Source: Cephaloticoccus sp.
Lineage (GTDB): Bacteria > Verrucomicrobiota > Verrucomicrobiia > Opitutales > Opitutaceae
Assembly (NCBI GenBank): GCA_021734075.1
Contig: JAIPJW010000015.1
Span: 1 to 39,834 of the forward strand
Direction: 5' to 3'
DNA: 39,834 nucleotides
Made by a program: the position numbers and the translations under genes. Below, piece by piece: positions 306 through 33,010 of the stretch; the stretch's first letter is position 1; the number at the start of each line of letters is the position of its first letter. The notes under the pieces are model-generated. The model did no database searches. It was not told the origin of the DNA and worked only from the letters and a program-made list of their open reading frames with translations.

Positions 306-1565
306 ATGGCTGAACTCTTAGGAAATGTCTTGGTGGGCCAATCCGGCGGCCCCACTTCTGTTATTAACGCCAGTGTGGCGGGCATCGTTGCTGAAGCCCT
401 CAATCACGAATGCGTCGAGGAGATCTATGGCACTTTGAATGGTGTTTTGGGCCTCCTGAACGAGGACTTTATTGATCTGGCCTCGGAGTCGCAGCAGCAA
501 ATTCGTGCCCTCAAGCATACGCCCGGCGCCGCCCTTGGCACTTGCCGCTACAAGCTGAAGAAACAGCAGGATTTCGAACGCGTGCTCGAGGTCTTCAAGG
601 CCCACAATATTCGCTATTTCTTCTACATCGGGGGTAATGACTCCCAGGACACCGCGGACAAGATATCCAAGCTCGCCCAAGAGCAGGGCTATGAGCTCCG
701 CGTCATCGGCGTGCCGAAGACGATCGACAACGATCTGGCCGTCACCGACCACTGTCCCGGTTATGGCAGCGTGATCAAGTTCCTCGCCACCACTGTCCGC
801 GAAGTCGCCTGTGACAGCGAGGCCATGGGCCAGGGCGACCTGGTTTCCATCATCGAAGTCATGGGACGTTCCGCCGGCTGGATCGCCGCCGGTGCCGCCC
901 TCGCCAAGCGCCGCGACCATCCGCACGATCCACCGCACCTGATTCTCCTCCCCGAGATCCGCTTCAACCAGGCCAAGGTCCTCGAGGACATCCGCCGCGT
1001 GCTGAAACGGGAAAAATTCTGTTCCATCGTGGTCGCCGAAGGTTTGGTGGATGATGATGGCAACTACGTGGCCGCCAACGCCCAGACCGATGCCTTTGGC
1101 CATGCCCAACTCGGCGGTGCCGGGGATGCCCTCGCTGAAATCATCGAGTCCAACCTGCCCGGCGTGAAGGTGCGGGTCGCCAAACCCGGCCTCATGCAAC
1201 GCGCCGCCGCCCACTCCGCCTCCAAGACCGATGCCGATGAGGCTTACATGGCCGGTCAGGCCGCCGTCCGCGCTGCCGTTGACGGTGAGACCGACAAGAT
1301 GATCACCCTCCTCCGCGGCGATGACGATGCTTACAGCTGCGGGACCGGTCTCGCGCCCCTGAGCGAAATCGCCAATGGCGTGAAGAAACTTCCGGCCGAC
1401 TGGATCAACGAGGACGGCGTCAGCATGAACTTCCAGTTCCTCCGCTACGCCCAGCCGCTCATTCAAGGCGAAATCGAGCTGCCGTATGACAACGGCCTGC
1501 CGCACTACGCCAAGCTCGACAAGGTTCGTGTCGACAAGGTCCTCGGGCCCTACGAGACGAGCTGA
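306..1565 (+). CDS. pfp: Pyrophosphate-dependent 6-phosphofructokinase
   Basis: A 419-residue phosphofructokinase-family enzyme that phosphorylates fructose 6-phosphate in glycolysis, and in PPi-dependent forms can work reversibly. Visible motifs are GQSGGPTSVIN near residue 11, GGNDSQDTA at 109-117, PKTIDND at 137-143 with the catalytic Asp, and MGRSAGW at 186-192. The Lys in PKTIDND, where ATP-dependent enzymes have Gly, is the usual mark of pyrophosphate use. GGNDS in place of GGDGS also argues against the classical ATP type. I chose the ATG at 306 because the nucleotide-loop motif then lies about 10 residues from the N-terminus; an in-frame extension back to 222 looks non-coding. There is no clear Shine-Dalgarno sequence. 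The gene stands alone and ends at a strong terminator. Confidence 0.92.
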   Translation: MAELLGNVLVGQSGGPTSVINASVAGIVAEALNHECVEEIYGTLNGVLGLLNEDFIDLASESQQQIRALKHTPGAALGTCRYKLKKQQDFERVLEVFKAHNIRYFFYIGGNDSQDTADKISKLAQEQGYELRVIGVPKTIDNDLAVTDHCPGYGSVIKFLATTVREVACDSEAMGQGDLVSIIEVMGRSAGWIAAGAALAKRRDHPHDPPHLILLPEIRFNQAKVLEDIRRVLKREKFCSIVVAEGLVDDDGNYVAANAQTDAFGHAQLGGAGDALAEIIESNLPGVKVRVAKPGLMQRAAAHSASKTDADEAYMAGQAAVRAAVDGETDKMITLLRGDDDAYSCGTGLAPLSEIANGVKKLPADWINEDGVSMNFQFLRYAQPLIQGEIELPYDNGLPHYAKLDKVRVDKVLGPYETS

Positions 1566-1588
1566 GCTTGGTTCAAAACGATTTGATC

Positions 1589-1619
1589 AAAGGCCGGTCG
1601 TTCGCGACCGGCCTTTTTT
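1589..1619 (+). terminator. Rho-independent terminator after the phosphofructokinase gene
   Basis: A perfect 9 bp GC-rich stem (GGCCGGTCG with CGACCGGCC) closes on a TTCG tetraloop and is followed by six T. The AAA before the stem can pair with the T run. It lies 24 bases after the stop codon. Confidence 0.95.
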
Positions 1620-1658
1620 GTGTCAGGAAGGGTGTGCACGCCCGACACGCTGAAATAT

Positions 1659-1699
1659 AAACCCGACATAAAACCCATCCGACGGCGGATTGGGACAAT
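1659..1699 (+). repeat. Left copy of ~41 bp direct repeat flanking a toxin-antitoxin pair
   Basis: This stretch matches 2316-2357 in the same orientation. The shared core includes ACGGCGGATTGGG and ACAAT, with the inner 30 bases differing at only a few positions. In this copy the second hairpin arm found in the right copy has decayed. Confidence 0.75.
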
Positions 1700-1746
1700 T
1701 CACACTAACTGTTGACTCATGTCCCGCCCCACAAGTGCTGTGACCT

Positions 1747-2010
1747 TCAGTCAACTTCCTCGATAGTGGTAACGATCACTTGTTTAACCGCGTGATCGAC
1801 CCAGAAATCAAAAATGAAACCATCTGTCATGATATGGGATATATCCCGTCCCGTGGCATCTTTGGTTTGAAAGTCAGGGACCAGAAAAGGGTCCGTTGCC
1901 AATTCATGCGCTCTGTCCAGGATTCGTCGCTGCTTGCGTTTGCTCCATCCCACCAACGACTCCACCGCCAACTCAGAAAAGATCACTCGGTATCCGAAGC
2001 GATTAGCCAC
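1747..2010 (-). CDS. RelE/ParE-family toxin
   Basis: An 87-residue small basic protein with the layout of RelE/ParE toxins: YRVIFSELAVESL at the start, a basic helix with WSKRKQRRIL, and a C-terminal strand set with FIFDFWVDHAVKQVIVTTIEEV. Family members are mRNA interferases or gyrase inhibitors; which applies here cannot be told. It starts with GTG at 2010, and this codon overlaps the end of the upstream antitoxin gene by 8 bases, so the two are translationally coupled. The pair lies between two direct repeats. Confidence 0.7.
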   Translation of the reverse strand: MANRFGYRVIFSELAVESLVGWSKRKQRRILDRAHELATDPFLVPDFQTKDATGRDISHIMTDGFIFDFWVDHAVKQVIVTTIEEVD

Positions 2011-2209
2011 GGCGGTGACACGCTTCCAAAGCTTCCAAGGCGGTGCCCTTGCCAGCCTGCACTTCCTTGATACTTTTCGCCGTCGCCTTCTTCCAAGCGG
2101 GGGTCATGCGCTTCAACTGGTGAAGGTAAATCTGCACCTCTCTGCGCTCACGGGCAGACAGTCGGGATAGGCTTTGCTTGATTTCCAAAACGCTCACGGG
2201 GCAAACCAT
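2003..2209 (-). CDS. Probable antitoxin of the RelE/ParE pair
   Basis: A 68-residue charged, helical protein containing VLEIKQSLSRLSARERREVQ. It belongs to a common type of short helical protein found directly upstream of RelE-like toxins. It overlaps the toxin start by 8 bases. I chose ATG at 2209, which has AGG about 9 bases upstream; GTG at 2197 is an alternative and would give a protein starting at SVLEIK. The role is inferred from size, position and composition. No DNA-binding motif is obvious, so autoregulation is uncertain. Confidence 0.6.
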   Translation of the reverse strand: MVCPVSVLEIKQSLSRLSARERREVQIYLHQLKRMTPAWKKATAKSIKEVQAGKGTALEALEACHRRG

Positions 2210-2315
2210 GCCGGGAAACCTGATAAGGTCAAGTTGAGCATAATCAAAAGCCCTCGCCTCCACGAAACGGGTAGGCCCAGCGCAATTGTCAGGTAGGGCC
2301 GGGCACGCCAAGAGA

Positions 2316-2357
2316 AAACCTGATCCAAAACCCATGCAACGGCGGATTGGGGACAAT
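2316..2357 (+). repeat. Right copy of ~41 bp direct repeat
   Basis: Direct counterpart of 1659-1699. The 3' half forms a hairpin: GGCGGATTG at 2341-2349 pairs with CAATCCGCC at 2354-2362 across a GGGA loop. The toxin-antitoxin pair lies between this copy and the left one. Confidence 0.75.
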
Positions 2358-2397
2358 CCGCCCTACCACTCATGGTAGGGCGCGCTGTCCCAGCGCG
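2341..2397. repeat. Three tandem hairpins, REP-like intergenic element
   Basis: Three perfect stem-loops follow one another: 2341-2349 with 2354-2362 (9 bp), 2361-2368 with 2373-2380 (CCCTACCA and TGGTAGGG, 8 bp), and 2381-2387 with 2391-2397 (CGCGCTG and CAGCGCG, 7 bp). They sit just past the 3' end of the dioxygenase gene on the minus strand, so they could protect or end that transcript. The compact palindromes resemble a dispersed extragenic repeat family; the copy number in the genome cannot be seen here. Confidence 0.7.
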
Positions 2398-2418
2398 CCG
2401 AAAAATCTCTCGGCCAGC

Positions 2419-3168
2419 CTACACTCGTCTGCCGTCCACGATGAACGGCTCGGCAAAGGCCGCCAGGGATCCGTCGGGGCGGCGCAGGGGTTCGGCGGAA
2501 TACTGTGGCAGGTAAACCCGCCGCCAGTTTGGCGTCGTGTTGAAACCGCTGCGGTGCAGCACCGTGCTGGAAAAACAGGCGATGCTCCCGGCCGGCACGA
2601 TCACCGGGTCGCCCGGATCATCACCAAAGTAGCCCTCCAGATCATTGCTGCCGGGTTGTTGTTGATGCGGCACCACCTCGCGGGTGCCGTGCCGGGAATA
2701 CGGCAGAAGATACACCGTGCCATTGGCCTCCGTCACATCGTCCAAGGTCACCCAACAGGTGATGTAGGGCCGGTGGGGCGTGCCGACGTAGGCCGAGTCC
2801 TGGTGCCAGCTGAACTTCGCCCCTTTCTCGGGCCCCTTGATCACAAATTGCTCCCAAAACAAATAGGCATTGTCCCCGAGCGTGGCCCGGCAGACTTCCG
2901 CCATCACATCGCTGAAGATAAACCCCGGCAACCGGGTGCCCAGGTGCCGGTTGGCGATAAAATAGCGACTGCCCTTGATATTGATCCCCTGCTGGGTCAC
3001 CCCCGCCGCGTCCATCTCGGCATCATAACCGGCGATCATTTCGGCGCAGGTCTCCCGCATCATCGCCAGATGCTCGGGTGGCACCACCCTTTCCAAAACG
3101 AAGAAACCCTCGTCACGGAACTGTTGGCGCAATTTTTCCGGAATCAGATCAGGGGATGCCGTGTTCAT
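2419..3168 (-). CDS. Phytanoyl-CoA dioxygenase (PhyH) family protein
   Basis: A 249-residue Fe(II)/2-oxoglutarate-dependent oxygenase of the PhyH family. The metal site is visible as HQD (His122, Asp124) in SWHQDSAYVG and a distal His205 in VLHRSGFN; the Arg residues of WRRVYLP at 216-217 are candidates for binding 2-oxoglutarate. ANGTVYLLPYSRHGT at 149-162 is typical of the family. Members hydroxylate small molecules such as ectoine, halogenated metabolites or acyl chains, and the substrate cannot be predicted. It begins 19 bases after the end of the CstA-like gene on the same strand, so the two probably share a transcript. Confidence 0.88.
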   Translation of the reverse strand: MNTASPDLIPEKLRQQFRDEGFFVLERVVPPEHLAMMRETCAEMIAGYDAEMDAAGVTQQGINIKGSRYFIANRHLGTRLPGFIFSDVMAEVCRATLGDNAYLFWEQFVIKGPEKGAKFSWHQDSAYVGTPHRPYITCWVTLDDVTEANGTVYLLPYSRHGTREVVPHQQQPGSNDLEGYFGDDPGDPVIVPAGSIACFSSTVLHRSGFNTTPNWRRVYLPQYSAEPLRRPDGSLAAFAEPFIVDGRRV

Positions 3169-3187
3169 GGGTTGGAAGTCCGCGTCA

Positions 3188-5029
3188 TCAGGCTCGCACG
3201 GCCTCGATGGCGTTGTCCTCGAGGATGCCCTTGGCCCGGGGAAACAGTTTGATGGCTTCGAACATCATCCATACCTCGAGCATCAGCGTGATCAGGGCGA
3301 TACTCACGAGGAGCCACTTGCCCTGACTCAACCAACTGGGGGTATCCGCCCCACCAATAAACACCTGCCAGATCATGGCCCACATGGGAATGATGAGCAT
3401 GAAAATCATCGGCAGGATCACGAACCACACCGCGATGCCGCGCCGCCACAGGTAGAAGGCGATCACCAGAAACGACAGGCCGCCGAGCAGTTGATTCGTC
3501 GCACCAAACAAGGGCCAGAGCAGGAGACCGCCCTTGCCCGCATTGGCAAAACTCCACGCCTGTCCCGCCGGTGGCGCCGCGGCGATCAAGCCGGCAAAAA
3601 ACACCGCCGTAATCGTTGCGCCATGCTTGCCGCGCAGCCAGGCGAAGAAATCGAGTCCACCCGCGGTTCGCGGAGCCACCGTGGTCGCGAGTTCCTGGAT
3701 CACGTAACGTTGCAGGCGGCACGCACTGTCAAGGGTGGTGCCGGCAAATGAGGCCACAAAGACCCCCATCAATGCCACCGCCACCCCACCCGGCATGCCC
3801 AGCGCCTTCAGAAAATTGGAGGAACCATCGACAAACGCCGCCACCAGCGGTCCCAAGCTGGCCGACCACACACTGTAGCGCGTGAGCCAGGCCTCATGCC
3901 CCACGAGCACGGTGCCATCGGCCTTGGCGAGACCCAGACCGAGACCGGCGGCGCAGGCCAAAATCACGAGGACGGCCAGAAAGCCCTCGGTCAGCATGCC
4001 GCCGTAACCGACAAACCGTGCATCCGGTTCGCTCTTCAGCTGCTTGCTGCTTGTGCCACTGCTGACGAGGCAATGAAACCCGCTGATCGCGCCACAGGCG
4101 ATGGTGATAAAAAGAAAGGGAAAAATCATCGGCGCACCGGCCGGATTCCAATTCACCATCGGAGCAGCCATTTCCAAGGCGGGCCGCGTGCCGTCAAGGA
4201 GCGGAGCACCACCAGCAAAGGCCGCCACAATCAAACCCACGACCAAGAGGCCCAACACCGAGATCAGTTGCAGTGAGTTGATGTAGTCGCGGGGTTGCAG
4301 GAGCGACCACACGGGCAAGACCGAGGCCACATAGGAATAGAGTAGCAGGAGCACGACCCAGGTCCAGGAGGACCAGGCGGCCATGGTGGTATTGATCGCA
4401 TGGAGCATGCCGGTGTCACCATAGATCACCGTCAGATACATCAGCACCAAGGCGACAATGGAGGGCACCATGAGATTGGTCCCGCGGCGGTGCAGCCAGT
4501 AACCAATAATGACCGCAATCGGAATTTGGATCGTGCAGGGCACAATGGCCGCCGGGTATTGGCGAAACACCGCCGCAATCACCAAGCCGAAGATTGCCAG
4601 CACAATGGTGAGGGCCAGAAACAGGATCAGGAGAAACAGGAGCCGCACGCGGCGGTTGAGCAATCGTCCCGCGACATCACCCACCGTCTGACCGTTGTTG
4701 CGGAGAGATACCACCAGCGAGCCGAAGTCATGCACTGCCCCGATGAAGATCGAACCGAGCACCACCCAGAGCAGGGCCGGCAACCAACCCCACATGATGC
4801 CAATCGCCGGGCCGACAATCGGACCGGTGCCCGCGATCGAGGCAAAGTGATGGCCGAAAACCACGCTCTTGGAGGTGGGCACATAGTCCACGCCGTCTTC
4901 CAACCGGTGCGACGGGCACACATGGCTCGCGGTGAGCTTGAAAATCTTGCCACCGAGCCAGCGGCCGTAGGTGTGATACGCGATAATGAAGCCAAGGCCG
5001 CTCAGCAGCGCAATGAGGAGTGTTTGCAT
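3188..5029 (-). CDS. cstA: CstA/BtsT-family carbon starvation transporter
   Basis: A 613-residue multi-pass membrane protein of the CstA family. The signature GHHFASIAGTGPIVGPA is at residues 59-75, followed by long hydrophobic segments, and LLWPLFGATNQLLGGLS lies in the C-terminal five-helix domain. Family members import peptides or pyruvate in carbon-limited cells. I chose ATG at 5029 because the protein then begins directly with a membrane helix (MQTLLIALLSGLGFIIAY), as in homologues. An upstream in-frame stretch to 5359 overlaps hairpins and looks non-coding. It is probably cotranscribed with the PhyH-family gene that follows. E. coli CstA is longer, near 700 residues. Confidence 0.9.
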   Translation of the reverse strand: MQTLLIALLSGLGFIIAYHTYGRWLGGKIFKLTASHVCPSHRLEDGVDYVPTSKSVVFGHHFASIAGTGPIVGPAIGIMWGWLPALLWVVLGSIFIGAVHDFGSLVVSLRNNGQTVGDVAGRLLNRRVRLLFLLILFLALTIVLAIFGLVIAAVFRQYPAAIVPCTIQIPIAVIIGYWLHRRGTNLMVPSIVALVLMYLTVIYGDTGMLHAINTTMAAWSSWTWVVLLLLYSYVASVLPVWSLLQPRDYINSLQLISVLGLLVVGLIVAAFAGGAPLLDGTRPALEMAAPMVNWNPAGAPMIFPFLFITIACGAISGFHCLVSSGTSSKQLKSEPDARFVGYGGMLTEGFLAVLVILACAAGLGLGLAKADGTVLVGHEAWLTRYSVWSASLGPLVAAFVDGSSNFLKALGMPGGVAVALMGVFVASFAGTTLDSACRLQRYVIQELATTVAPRTAGGLDFFAWLRGKHGATITAVFFAGLIAAAPPAGQAWSFANAGKGGLLLWPLFGATNQLLGGLSFLVIAFYLWRRGIAVWFVILPMIFMLIIPMWAMIWQVFIGGADTPSWLSQGKWLLVSIALITLMLEVWMMFEAIKLFPRAKGILEDNAIEAVRA

Positions 5030-6903: not shown

Positions 6904-9159
6904 CTACTGGAACGCCTGATTGAGCACTACGTCCTTGCGCCGACTTTCCGGCGTGACCTTGAGATCCACCATTTTGCCTCCCCGCACCTTTGCCTCCACC
7001 ACGGTTTGCCCGGGCGCGTGCAACTTGAACTGCACCTCCCAATCGACCGGCCAGGCCGGCAACAGGTAAATGGCATCGCCCTCGGTCTGCATGAGCATCG
7101 CTTGCACCGCCTTCATGAGCACCCCGCCGTGACATTGGTCGGGCGTCCAATCATAATTGGGACCCCAGAAAGCCGGGAACCGGCAGGCCGGATCCTTGTT
7201 GCGGGCGCGCTCCACCACATAATCGCGGGCCTCATTCGCCAGACCCAGGTAAGCCATGAAAATATCCTCCTGCCGCCAGCCGAACGCGCCGCGATCCATC
7301 CGTCGCACCAAGGCCTCCACGCCAAGCCCCGCATTGTCTTTCTCAAAGGAAACCAGACGGAACGGAAACACGGCGTAAAGTTCCGCATTCTCGATATTGC
7401 GTTTGTTGGCAAACTTTTCGGCCGGGGCCAGCAGGCGCACCCCGTCGACTTCCTGAATCGGCAACGGCGGAAGTTTTTCCCGCAGGGTCATCAGGTAATT
7501 GCGGTCCGCCCCCGGGAGCAGATCATTGGGCAGCGCGAGCAGTCGGCCAATCACAGCGTGGAGCCCCGCAACCTCGGGCATGGGGTTCGTGCTATCCCAC
7601 CAGGTCTCAAGGGCCTGCGCGGGGTGCATCACCAGTTTGCCCTCCGGCCCGGTTTCATAAAAACAATCGAAGAATCGAATGTAGAGCCGGGCCGCGGGGA
7701 TCAGGGTCCGGACCAGGAAATCACGATCCCCGGTGTGGTCAAAATAGTCCAGCAACATGAAGACAAACTCGAGACCACTGACCCACTCCCATTTGTGATA
7801 ACCGCTGGTCTGCAGCTTGTCGGTGCGCTCGGCCGCGGTGGTTTCCCAACCGTAGCTCTCGCCGAAGACCGCCCCCCAAGAATGAATACATTCGGGCATG
7901 TAGGCGGCATCGGTAAAATTGTAGTAGCGCTGGGCACGGTAGCGCGAAACCGCGGTCACCTCCCCCGCAAACATCCGGTGAAACGATTCGAGCATATCCC
8001 AATCCCCGGAGGTGCAAAGCCCGGCATAGGGCAGCCTCGTGTTTTGCCACCAATATCCCGGACCCCACCGCCGGTAATCGGCGTCACCCGGCTGATCCGG
8101 CCACGGCACGGTAAAGAGCGAGCCATTGAACTTGATCGGAAACGCGCCCCGGCCGGCACATGCCGTGATGAAGCGTTGCAGGGCATAGCCCCGGGTTACC
8201 TCCCGTGGGGCCGCCGCATCGGCTATATCCGGCGCGGCCGTGATCGCGATGTGGCTGCGGGACCAAAATTCACGCCACCACGTCACGTGCTGGGCATAAC
8301 GATCGGCCACCGACACGGTTTCGGCCTGATTGATCAACGCCTTTATCCCGGCCAGCCATTGCTCCGGACTGGAGGGGTGTTGGGTCAGCACATGCACGGA
8401 AAATTCGTGACGTTTGGCCGGGCCCTGCATCAGGCGCTGAGCGGTGACTCGGCTCGCGCCCGGACTGCGAATGACCGCACCAAAAGTGCGGTGGAGAATC
8501 GGGTCCGTCCACGGCGCCCCCAACAAATCCTGATGCGCCATGGTTTCCACGGGGCCCACAGATTTGCGGTTGTGGTGATACCACCCGATGCTGTCCTCCA
8601 ATCCACTCAAAATCATATCGGGTTCCACCACGGTCGGGGCGCGTTGGTGATCCGGTTTGCTCCGGTCCAAATTGACATCACTCACCTCAATCGTCGGCAG
8701 GGTGACCGGGTGGGTGCGCCACAACTCGAAGGTGATCGCCGCCGCCACCGGCTCCACTGCCTCCACCTCCACCTGGATGGTCGGATGATTGGCATCCACC
8801 CATAAACGGAGCGTCACCTCCGGAGCCATTGTTACGACGATTTCACCGCGGGCCGGAACCAGTCTTTGCGCAAAGGCCCCGCCGGACGATAAAAGACCCG
8901 GGATCAGTTGCACGCGCACCAGCCCCACCTTGGCCAAACGCGAGTTGTCTTCCCAGGTGTCGGTCTTGCCGATGTAGAACAGCAAATCACCGCCGGTATC
9001 GACCCATGCATTCAGGGCGATATCCCCATTGCCAAGCGGCATCGAACCACGGGCATCGCTGCTGGGTGAGTCCCAAACCACCTCGGCCGGGAGAGCATTT
9101 TCAGAATCGGTTTTGGAGTCCGCCGGAAGCAAGGGACGCGGAGTTGGGATAGTGGCCAT
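6904..9159 (-). CDS. DUF5703 / GH95-like glycoside hydrolase family protein
   Basis: A 751-residue protein. The N-terminal part carries the DUF5703-type signature: WDSPSSDARGSMPLGNGDIA near residues 29-48 and LLFYIGKTDTWEDNSRL soon after. The middle and C-terminal parts read as an alpha/alpha-barrel, with W/Y-rich stretches such as WGPGYWWQNTRLPYAGL and a late WPVDWEVQFKLHAPG. Together these resemble GH95-like alpha-L-fucosidase or galactosidase relatives. The activity is an inference from fold resemblance. ATG at 9159 gives no signal peptide; a 19-residue upstream extension to 9216 is Cys-rich and not signal-like. It is divergent from the histidine kinase gene, 276 bases apart. Confidence 0.75.
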   Translation of the reverse strand: MATIPTPRPLLPADSKTDSENALPAEVVWDSPSSDARGSMPLGNGDIALNAWVDTGGDLLFYIGKTDTWEDNSRLAKVGLVRVQLIPGLLSSGGAFAQRLVPARGEIVVTMAPEVTLRLWVDANHPTIQVEVEAVEPVAAAITFELWRTHPVTLPTIEVSDVNLDRSKPDHQRAPTVVEPDMILSGLEDSIGWYHHNRKSVGPVETMAHQDLLGAPWTDPILHRTFGAVIRSPGASRVTAQRLMQGPAKRHEFSVHVLTQHPSSPEQWLAGIKALINQAETVSVADRYAQHVTWWREFWSRSHIAITAAPDIADAAAPREVTRGYALQRFITACAGRGAFPIKFNGSLFTVPWPDQPGDADYRRWGPGYWWQNTRLPYAGLCTSGDWDMLESFHRMFAGEVTAVSRYRAQRYYNFTDAAYMPECIHSWGAVFGESYGWETTAAERTDKLQTSGYHKWEWVSGLEFVFMLLDYFDHTGDRDFLVRTLIPAARLYIRFFDCFYETGPEGKLVMHPAQALETWWDSTNPMPEVAGLHAVIGRLLALPNDLLPGADRNYLMTLREKLPPLPIQEVDGVRLLAPAEKFANKRNIENAELYAVFPFRLVSFEKDNAGLGVEALVRRMDRGAFGWRQEDIFMAYLGLANEARDYVVERARNKDPACRFPAFWGPNYDWTPDQCHGGVLMKAVQAMLMQTEGDAIYLLPAWPVDWEVQFKLHAPGQTVVEAKVRGGKMVDLKVTPESRRKDVVLNQAFQ

Positions 9160-32324: not shown

Positions 32325-32350
32325 TATGGGGTATGCACTTGACGCAAGCA
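32325..32350 (+). repeat. Left terminal inverted repeat
   Basis: Twenty-six bases beginning TATGGGGTATGCAC; they pair with 32985-33010 except at positions 3 and 21. Similarity ends sharply after this, as expected for transposon ends. Confidence 0.8.
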
Positions 32351-32385
32351 GGGGCTCGGCGGTCCGAGTCCCAGTGCGGCAGAGC

Positions 32386-32417
32386 TTGACGCACCTAGAA
32401 GTATCATTAAAGTATCA
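32386..32417 (+). promoter_or_regulatory. Promoter and direct-repeat operator of the antitoxin gene
   Basis: TTGACG at 32386-32391 is a plausible -35 with TAAAGT at 32408-32413 as a weak -10. AAGTATCA occurs twice, at 32399-32406 and 32410-32417, one helical turn apart and ending 3 bases before the ATG. This fits antitoxin autoregulation. The gene would have a very short leader. Confidence 0.45.
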
Positions 32418-32420
32418 CTT

Positions 32421-32678
32421 ATGAAAACCGAACTGGTGACAACGTTAAAGCGAAAGGCGACCGACATCATCGACTCACTCCAAATTGAGCGCGAACCGGT
32501 GTTGATCACGCAGCACGGCAAACCCGCGGCCTACCTCGTCGATGTGGATACTTTTGAAGCGACCCAAACGCGGCTCTCCATCCTTGAAGGAATCGCAGTG
32601 GGAGAACATGCGGTGCGCGAGGGCAGGGTTACGAGCCAGGCTGAGGCCAAAAGGCGTCTGTCGCGATGGCTCGCATAA
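32421..32678 (+). CDS. Phd/YefM-family antitoxin inside the MITE-like element
   Basis: An 85-residue antitoxin: LVTTLKRKATDIIDSLQIE is the DNA-binding front, EPVLITQHGKPAAYLVDVDTF the conserved Phd core, and the Arg/Lys-rich tail ending LSRWLA the toxin-binding part. It overlaps the toxin gene by 13 bases. It lacks a Shine-Dalgarno sequence; direct repeats occupy that space, so repressor binding and translation control may interact. Confidence 0.85.
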   Translation: MKTELVTTLKRKATDIIDSLQIEREPVLITQHGKPAAYLVDVDTFEATQTRLSILEGIAVGEHAVREGRVTSQAEAKRRLSRWLA

Positions 32679-32962
32679 TATGGTCAACGCCTGCGCTCGC
32701 GCAGCTTGAGGCCATTGCGACCGCCATTGAGGTCGACAAGCCTCTGGTGGCGCGGGCCGTAGTTAAGCAAATCTGGACCAAGGTCGAGCGGCTGGCGGAA
32801 TTCTCGGCGATGGGTCGCGCCATTCCTGAATTTCGCCGCCCCGGATACCGCCAGCTGTGGGTCAAGCCCTGTTGGGTGTATTACCGGGCGAGTGGGGATG
32901 AGGTTTTCATACTGCATGTTCGCCGCGCAGAGAAATTACTGATTCTCGACGACCTCATTTAG
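32666..32962 (+). CDS. ParE/RelE-family toxin inside the MITE-like element
   Basis: A 98-residue toxin of the ParE/RelE superfamily: IIWSTPALAQLEAIATAIEVD at the N-terminus, a central MGRAIPEFRRPGYRQLWVKP and a final VFILHVRRAEKLL. The layout is closer to ParE than to RelE. It looks intact. Only 22 bases separate its stop from the right terminal inverted repeat, so the element ends tightly after the cargo. Confidence 0.85.
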   Translation: MARIIWSTPALAQLEAIATAIEVDKPLVARAVVKQIWTKVERLAEFSAMGRAIPEFRRPGYRQLWVKPCWVYYRASGDEVFILHVRRAEKLLILDDLI

Positions 32963-32984
32963 CGAAATGTGGCGCACTTCAACT

Positions 32985-33010
32985 TGCTTACGTCAAGTGC
33001 ATACCCCGTA
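32985..33010 (-). repeat. Right terminal inverted repeat
   Basis: Reverse complement of the left end with two differences. It ends CATACCCCGTA and is followed directly by the second AACTAA. Confidence 0.8.

Follow-up and report, generated by a model that had tools for sequence, protein, structure and literature searches.

The window (the whole stretch of DNA that was analysed, 39,834 nucleotides long, which is one contig of a Cephaloticoccus sp. draft genome of 3.53 Mb in 212 contigs) carries a small toxin-antitoxin (TA)-like module that has a copy of a 68-bp sequence on each side, both in the same orientation. The analysis supports the view that the two copies are real and not a chance pair, and that direct repeats around such modules are tied to the presence or absence of the module. 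As to the origin of the arrangement in the window, we give a chance just short of even to an insertion of the module that duplicated local sequence. In that explanation, we infer (i) the duplication at insertion; (ii) the breakage and joining of DNA; (iii) addiction; and (iv) the same entry route for the window's module as for the others. For the window itself, the evidence lies in the repeat, in the specificity of its sequence and in the relatives that lack the module; the remainder is argued by analogy with better-preserved loci.

The module and its direct repeat

The module lies in the gap between two convergent genes, and the following features can be differentiated in this part of the window:

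306..1565, + strand: pfk, phosphofructokinase-type gene, left neighbour (Pfam PFK, 2.9e-60 for ORF 222-1565)
1592..1619, + strand: hairpin and T-run, probable pfk terminator (from the sequence; the same hairpin is found in the TA-less relatives G002, G004 and G006)
1640..1707, + strand: direct repeat, left copy, decayed, hairpin lost (alignments, folding)
1747..2010, - strand: toxin-like ORF, 87 aa, GTG start (ORF list; family conserved in Opitutaceae)
2003..2197, - strand: antitoxin-like ORF, 64 aa counted from GTG, overlapping the toxin-like ORF by 8 nt
2298..2365, + strand: direct repeat, right copy (alignments)
2341..2367, + strand: GTAG-type REP hairpin, stem GGCGGATT..AATCCGCC, then CTACC (-10.7 kcal/mol, z -4.87)
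2374..2399, + strand: second REP hairpin, in opposite orientation, which completes the doublet (-13 kcal/mol, z -5.14)
2419..3168, - strand: PhyH, phytanoyl-CoA dioxygenase gene, right neighbour (Pfam PhyH, 1.8e-23)

A preliminary description of this DNA had placed a TA pair between two same-orientation repeats of some 41 bp, and this arrangement is borne out by the alignments. The ungapped core of the repeat spans 36 nt (83% identity, 1659-1694 versus 2316-2351, spacing 657), and when gaps are allowed the repeat extends over 1640-1707 and 2298-2365 with a score of 49, as compared with a maximum of 29 in 1000 shuffles. The 68-bp copies are identical at 52 of 69 aligned positions (maximum score 31 in 100 shuffles). 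Hence, the repeat is real but longer than first described, the ~41-bp unit being its better-conserved part. A further extension, to a third REP and to the terminator side, was suggested by a lenient alignment and rejected as not significant (p 0.36 and 0.12).

The insert between the two copies measures 590 bp and is filled by the two ORFs of the module; no inverted repeat bounding it appears in the repeat listing over 1000-3200, and a search of the window against Rfam found nothing that reached the gathering scores. The loss of the hairpin arm from the left copy and its retention in the right one, also pointed out in the preliminary description, are confirmed by folding (-0.6, z -1.11 for the left copy versus -10.7 kcal/mol, z -4.87 for the right copy).

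A 24-nt pattern that combines the shared spacer and the hairpin arm (with up to 3 mismatches) matches just these two sites in the 3.53-Mb draft. In addition, the repeat cores have no good match in 21 REP loci of the genus or in the other doublet of the draft, on contig C7 (best score 28 versus 90 for the self match). Judged by these comparisons, the part upstream of the hairpin looks specific to the two copies of the window, and a spacer specific to them implies that the copies probably derive from each other or from a common source. The suggestion that the module was captured between two dispersed repeats, which would have recombined as in a composite element, is not supported in view of this restriction to two sites. 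The repeat is indeed related to a dispersed REP family, but the shared sequence is site-specific and the repeats at other loci are different sequences, which makes such a capture extremely improbable.

REP hairpins and Y1_Tnp genes

The window's repeat is partly REP DNA: in the right copy it terminates in a stable hairpin that carries a CTACC end, and an opposed hairpin follows. GTAG-tagged REPs are described in Di Nocera et al. (2013, PMC3733652), and in the part of that article consulted they share with the window a hairpin with an unpaired GTAG-containing end, opposed neighbouring units and a position after genes or between convergent genes; the unpaired GTAG end and the opposed doublet are both present in the window. 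They differ in that the draft genome has two doublets of the tested pattern and in that no Y1_Tnp gene was found flanked by the exact end. The two doublets account for the 4 pattern matches of the window's genome, as compared with up to 12 matches in a relative (G003, 12; G006, 10; G004, 2; G008, 1), and the pattern is absent from G001, G002, G005 and G007.

The other doublet of the tested pattern, the sole further one in the draft genome, is found at L003 943-1527 (G000:C7 ~8795-8861), where it precedes a PemK/MazF-like pair by approximately 90 bp (PemK 1.7e-4, 22.2 bits; cut-off 23.1).

Six Y1_Tnp matches are present in the window's genome. The REPs that flank them may be the source of the repeat. 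The exact GGTAGGGC end is missing from all six stretches, but two of the six (L114 in G000:C168 and L115 in G000:C188) have Y1_Tnp genes near direct repeats with GTAGGG-type REP ends, unlike those of the window. Such repeats are as expected for REP-associated transposases, and they make REP mobility plausible.

Coincidence must also be weighed: an unrelated module could have come to be flanked by two copies of one REP doublet, through insertion or copying, since gaps between convergent genes are where REPs are often located. Other types of REP-like doublets do occur in the same gap of G002, G006 and G023, doublets are dispersed in the genus, and the six Y1_Tnp matches, together with the repeats at L114 and L115, point in the same direction. 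Nevertheless, the spacer shared by the two copies lacks a good match at the 21 REP loci and at the C7 doublet, the pattern occurs nowhere else in the draft, and the exact end is absent from the Y1_Tnp stretches. All things considered, we regard this coincidence as unlikely.

The pfk-PhyH site in relatives

Relatives were searched with one genome per species, and 29 pfk loci were read, two of which were ended by the end of a contig. PhyH adjoins pfk in five relatives (G002, G004, G006, G023 and G029). The module is missing from the pfk-PhyH gap in all five, and no recognisable copy of the repeat is found in any of them; G004 has almost no spacer between the two genes.

The pfk gene of the window is placed by its tree with those of G002, G004 and G001 (100/99), apart from L008 and L011, and G002, G004 and G001 have no member of the family at the thresholds of the toxin search, among the matches listed. 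L008 and L011 belong to two genomes of another genus; there, pfk has a related module next to it, in the same orientation and without the window's repeats. Within the genus, these data are read most simply as a gain of the module in the lineage of the window, repeated loss being the alternative.

Direct repeats around toxin-antitoxin loci

In a flank scan, 600 bp from the upstream side of each module were compared with 600 bp from its downstream side, which made inserts of ~470 to ~1670 bp visible. The family loci scanned were a subset from among the matches listed by the profile search: 160 loci were scanned and gave 148 distinct hits, from which 3 second fragments scoring below 30 and 4 short-flank loci were dropped, leaving 141 usable loci, the window included. 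For the VapC/PIN toxins, 90 loci were taken from among the matches listed, and 88 of them were usable. The controls were of four types: (i) mispaired flanks from the same genome; (ii) pseudo-positions within the same loci; (iii) pfk positions; and (iv) Y1_Tnp loci.

At a score of at least 40, direct repeats flank 28 of the 141 family loci (about 25 independent sites when both strands are compared), and inverted repeats flank 6; the figures are 23 versus 1 at scores of at least 60, and 15 versus 1 at scores of at least 100. Mispaired flanks gave 1 direct and 3 inverted repeats in 216 comparisons. Treating loci as independent, the Fisher p values for the direct repeats are 1.6e-11 versus mispairs and 7.6e-5 versus inverted repeats. 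With 350-bp flanks, the count is 21 of 137 at the real positions, as compared with 2 of 60 and with 5 of 132 for pseudo-positions inside those loci (p 2.3e-4).

At pfk control positions, direct and inverted repeats are equally rare (3/276 each). Y1_Tnp loci, for their part, show direct repeats at 8 of 70 positions (11%; 4 of 14 loci) and inverted ones at 4 of 70, so other repeat-flanked genes exist in these genomes. The VapC/PIN loci have direct repeats in 15 of 88 cases (11 sites) and inverted repeats in none, while their mispairs gave 3 direct and 2 inverted in 158; at least one of the 15 repeats, that at L312, is a short simple repeat. In general terms, most controls show 0.5-4% of direct repeats versus 15-20% at TA loci.

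The lengths of the flanking repeats lie between 25 and 434 bp, and their sequences change from one locus to another. The inserts of the 23 family cases scoring at least 60 fall into two groups, 13 at 508-623 bp and 10 at 671-1067 bp; this clustering is partly built in because of the range that the scan can see.

The excess is common to two unrelated toxin families, which agrees with a bias of retention: direct duplications would form everywhere and collapse fast, and they would survive where an addictive module makes their collapse kill or stall the cell, the module not necessarily being their creator. On its own, however, this bias leaves the entry of a bare module between the copies unexplained, and we consider it distinctly improbable as the explanation.

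Loci with and without the module

Genomes G117 and G094 carry the module flanked by two copies of an 83-bp stretch, which is the start of the permease-like gene that follows (L048/L049). Their congeners G137 and G189 have a single 83-bp copy at this junction, and the module is absent from it. The preliminary description had proposed that the repeats permit precise loss of the module, and had suggested looking in relatives for an allele with one copy and no module. That allele exists at this related locus; it was not found at the window's own site in the five relatives, so the proposal holds in part.

The history of the G117/G094 locus is not simple. The two 83-bp copies differ at 5 of 83 positions in G117 and at 2 of 83 in G094. 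The outgroup G192, which is ~12% divergent over the region and falls outside the other four genomes in the tree of the right-hand gene, has the module at the same place, with the same right-hand gene and with the left copy absent; G191 has a partial module, likewise with the left copy absent. Since G192 has no left copy and the copies of G117 and G094 are nearly identical, the second copy is there probably younger than the insertion. Either it formed after the arrival of the module, or it came by recombination of module-bearing with module-free alleles. A simple history of insertion followed by precise loss, considered for this locus, is weakened by G192 and G191.

A rival explanation is a re-acquisition by one-sided homology, in which a module-free cell takes up a relative's module together with its neighbour, one end being joined by homology and the other by illegitimate recombination. 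The recipient's and the donor's copies of the neighbour would then flank the module. G117 and G094 do join a G137-like left junction to a G192-like right side, G192 itself has the module without the left copy, and the tree agrees. Furthermore, the copies differ by ~1-25%, as donor and recipient would. Nevertheless, the donor must already carry the module at the same site, and the copies at L346 are nearly identical, in view of which we take re-acquisition to be somewhat unlikely.

At L346, a complete gene, a vapBC-type pair and a 171-bp copy of the 3' end of that gene (169/171 identical) follow one another directly, and L352, from another genus, has a decayed version of this arrangement with the same kind of gene before the vapBC-type pair. 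In both cases read closely, the end of a host gene is inside the repeat: the 5' end of the permease-like gene in one, and the 3' end of the gene that precedes vapBC in the other.

Two other loci have more complex arrangements. L257 380-1739 (G081:C33) has two family modules in opposite orientation with three direct copies of one gene end between them, as would result either from successive insertions at one site or from amplification. At L207 (G013:C1:4749000-4752600), in a two-contig genome, two toxin-like genes of the family lie ~0.6 kb apart and are surrounded by copies of one repeat, some direct and some inverted.

Likeness to known mobile systems

Insertion with long target duplication was reportedly described for restriction-modification (RM) systems by Nobusato and colleagues in 2000. 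In the consulted part of Mruk and Kobayashi (PMC3874152), it is stated for some RM systems that their insertion produces long target duplications of variable size, on the order of 100 bp, and the parts seen of PMC3031569 and PMC1643837 likewise describe RM insertion with long target duplication. The arrangement in the window looks closest to this type of insertion, by the following resemblances: (i) an addiction-type module without a transposase; (ii) long, variable direct duplications of local sequence; and (iii) a relative with one copy and no insert. In the window, a long local direct repeat is present, and transposase and inverted ends are absent; the relative with one copy and without the insert is found at L048/L049 and not among the five relatives at the window's site. 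The Opitutaceae modules differ from RM systems in that they are small two-gene TA-like units, and the window's duplication differs in being partly REP and in having no single-copy relative found.

As far as its consulted part goes, PMC3874152 attributes long target duplications to RM systems and not to TA modules, and the portions of the literature searched contained no report of such duplications at type II TA loci. Flanking direct repeats are mentioned, in the part seen of PMC8562856, for a TA pair of another kind, from a mycoplasma. Transposed genes of Arabidopsis are also flanked by direct repeats, for which excision of a circle and reinsertion have been proposed (Woodhouse et al., 2010, PMC2869330). 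According to the section of that article consulted, those repeats are target-site sequence, mostly genic, which is the likeness; the difference is that plant genes and not addiction modules are involved.

A proposed insertion with duplication of local sequence

The explanation preferred here for the window, the insertion with duplication of local sequence, would comprise the following steps. A bare TA-like module of ~0.59 kb would have entered the pfk-PhyH gap of the window's lineage, and its entry would have left it flanked by a direct repeat of 68 bp of local sequence, which forms part of a REP doublet. If the two copies recombined, the module would be lost and a single clean copy would remain. 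Selection would act against such losses in the case of an addictive module, and it is proposed that, in consequence, the repeats can persist and decay.

Several findings count against this explanation. The copies are only 75% identical and consist in part of REP DNA; because such DNA is dispersed in the genus, they may stem from two separate REP insertions. No single-copy allele was found at the window's site, and L008 and L011 have a related module beside pfk without these repeats. In addition, G192 has the module without the left copy, and direct repeats occur at Y1_Tnp loci too.

In a wider reading, chromosomal type II TA modules of Opitutaceae, of at least two unrelated families, would be transposase-free mobile units: bare operons, often of 0.5-0.6 kb, that enter gene ends and intergenic gaps with a duplication of tens to hundreds of bp and leave precisely via the copies, addiction deciding which alleles persist. 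We put this forward tentatively, as a possibility that we lean against. It has long been asked how small chromosomal TA modules can move when they have no transposase, and with the signature at 15-20% of loci and both alleles at one locus the hypothesis is directly testable. If true, it would link TA modules to another addiction system that is reported to move likewise. Such pairs may be gained and lost as the DNA of their landing site is first duplicated and later collapsed.

The toxin-like and antitoxin-like proteins

Relatives of the toxin-like protein are found in 37 of 189 genomes with a single-sequence search, and in at least 84 of 252 genomes of the bacterial family with a 28-sequence profile, the window's genome being included in both. 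An antitoxin-like short gene is located directly upstream of the toxin-like gene at 29 of the 30 related loci read (the exception is L051, and L068 is partial); the small overlapping two-gene operon typical of type II TA systems is, in this sense, kept across genomes.

The module resembles RelE/ParE type II systems in its small overlapping operon with the antitoxin-like gene first and in a weak match to 1wmi_A (PHS013; E=1.1), the single PDB profile match of the toxin-like protein, which we take to be an archaeal RelE. It differs from them in that the toxin-like ORF matches nothing above chance level in the Pfam, NCBIfam or PADLOC models, and its AlphaFold model (mean pLDDT 47) is unusable. 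The RelE-like label of the preliminary description is not confirmed by these searches, and the RelE-like identity of the 87-aa ORF is a lead and not a result. Homology to the window's own ParE-type toxin (32.7 kb) was looked for and not found, the profile comparison giving a probability of 0.2%.

That ParE-type toxin belongs to a Phd/YefM-ParE pair (Pfam 3.6e-14 and 8.5e-14) inside 32325-33010, between 26-nt inverted ends (32325-32350 and 32985-33010) that are 92% complementary. This is a MITE-like TA element, unlike the direct-repeat module. The similarity in unit size that had been pointed out between the two is numerically right (657 bp between copy starts), but since the ends and the genes at 32 kb are different, it mostly reflects the size of TA operons.

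At L049, L054, L064 and L184, the toxin-like frame has one internal stop codon in modules that are otherwise conserved, which suggests decay.
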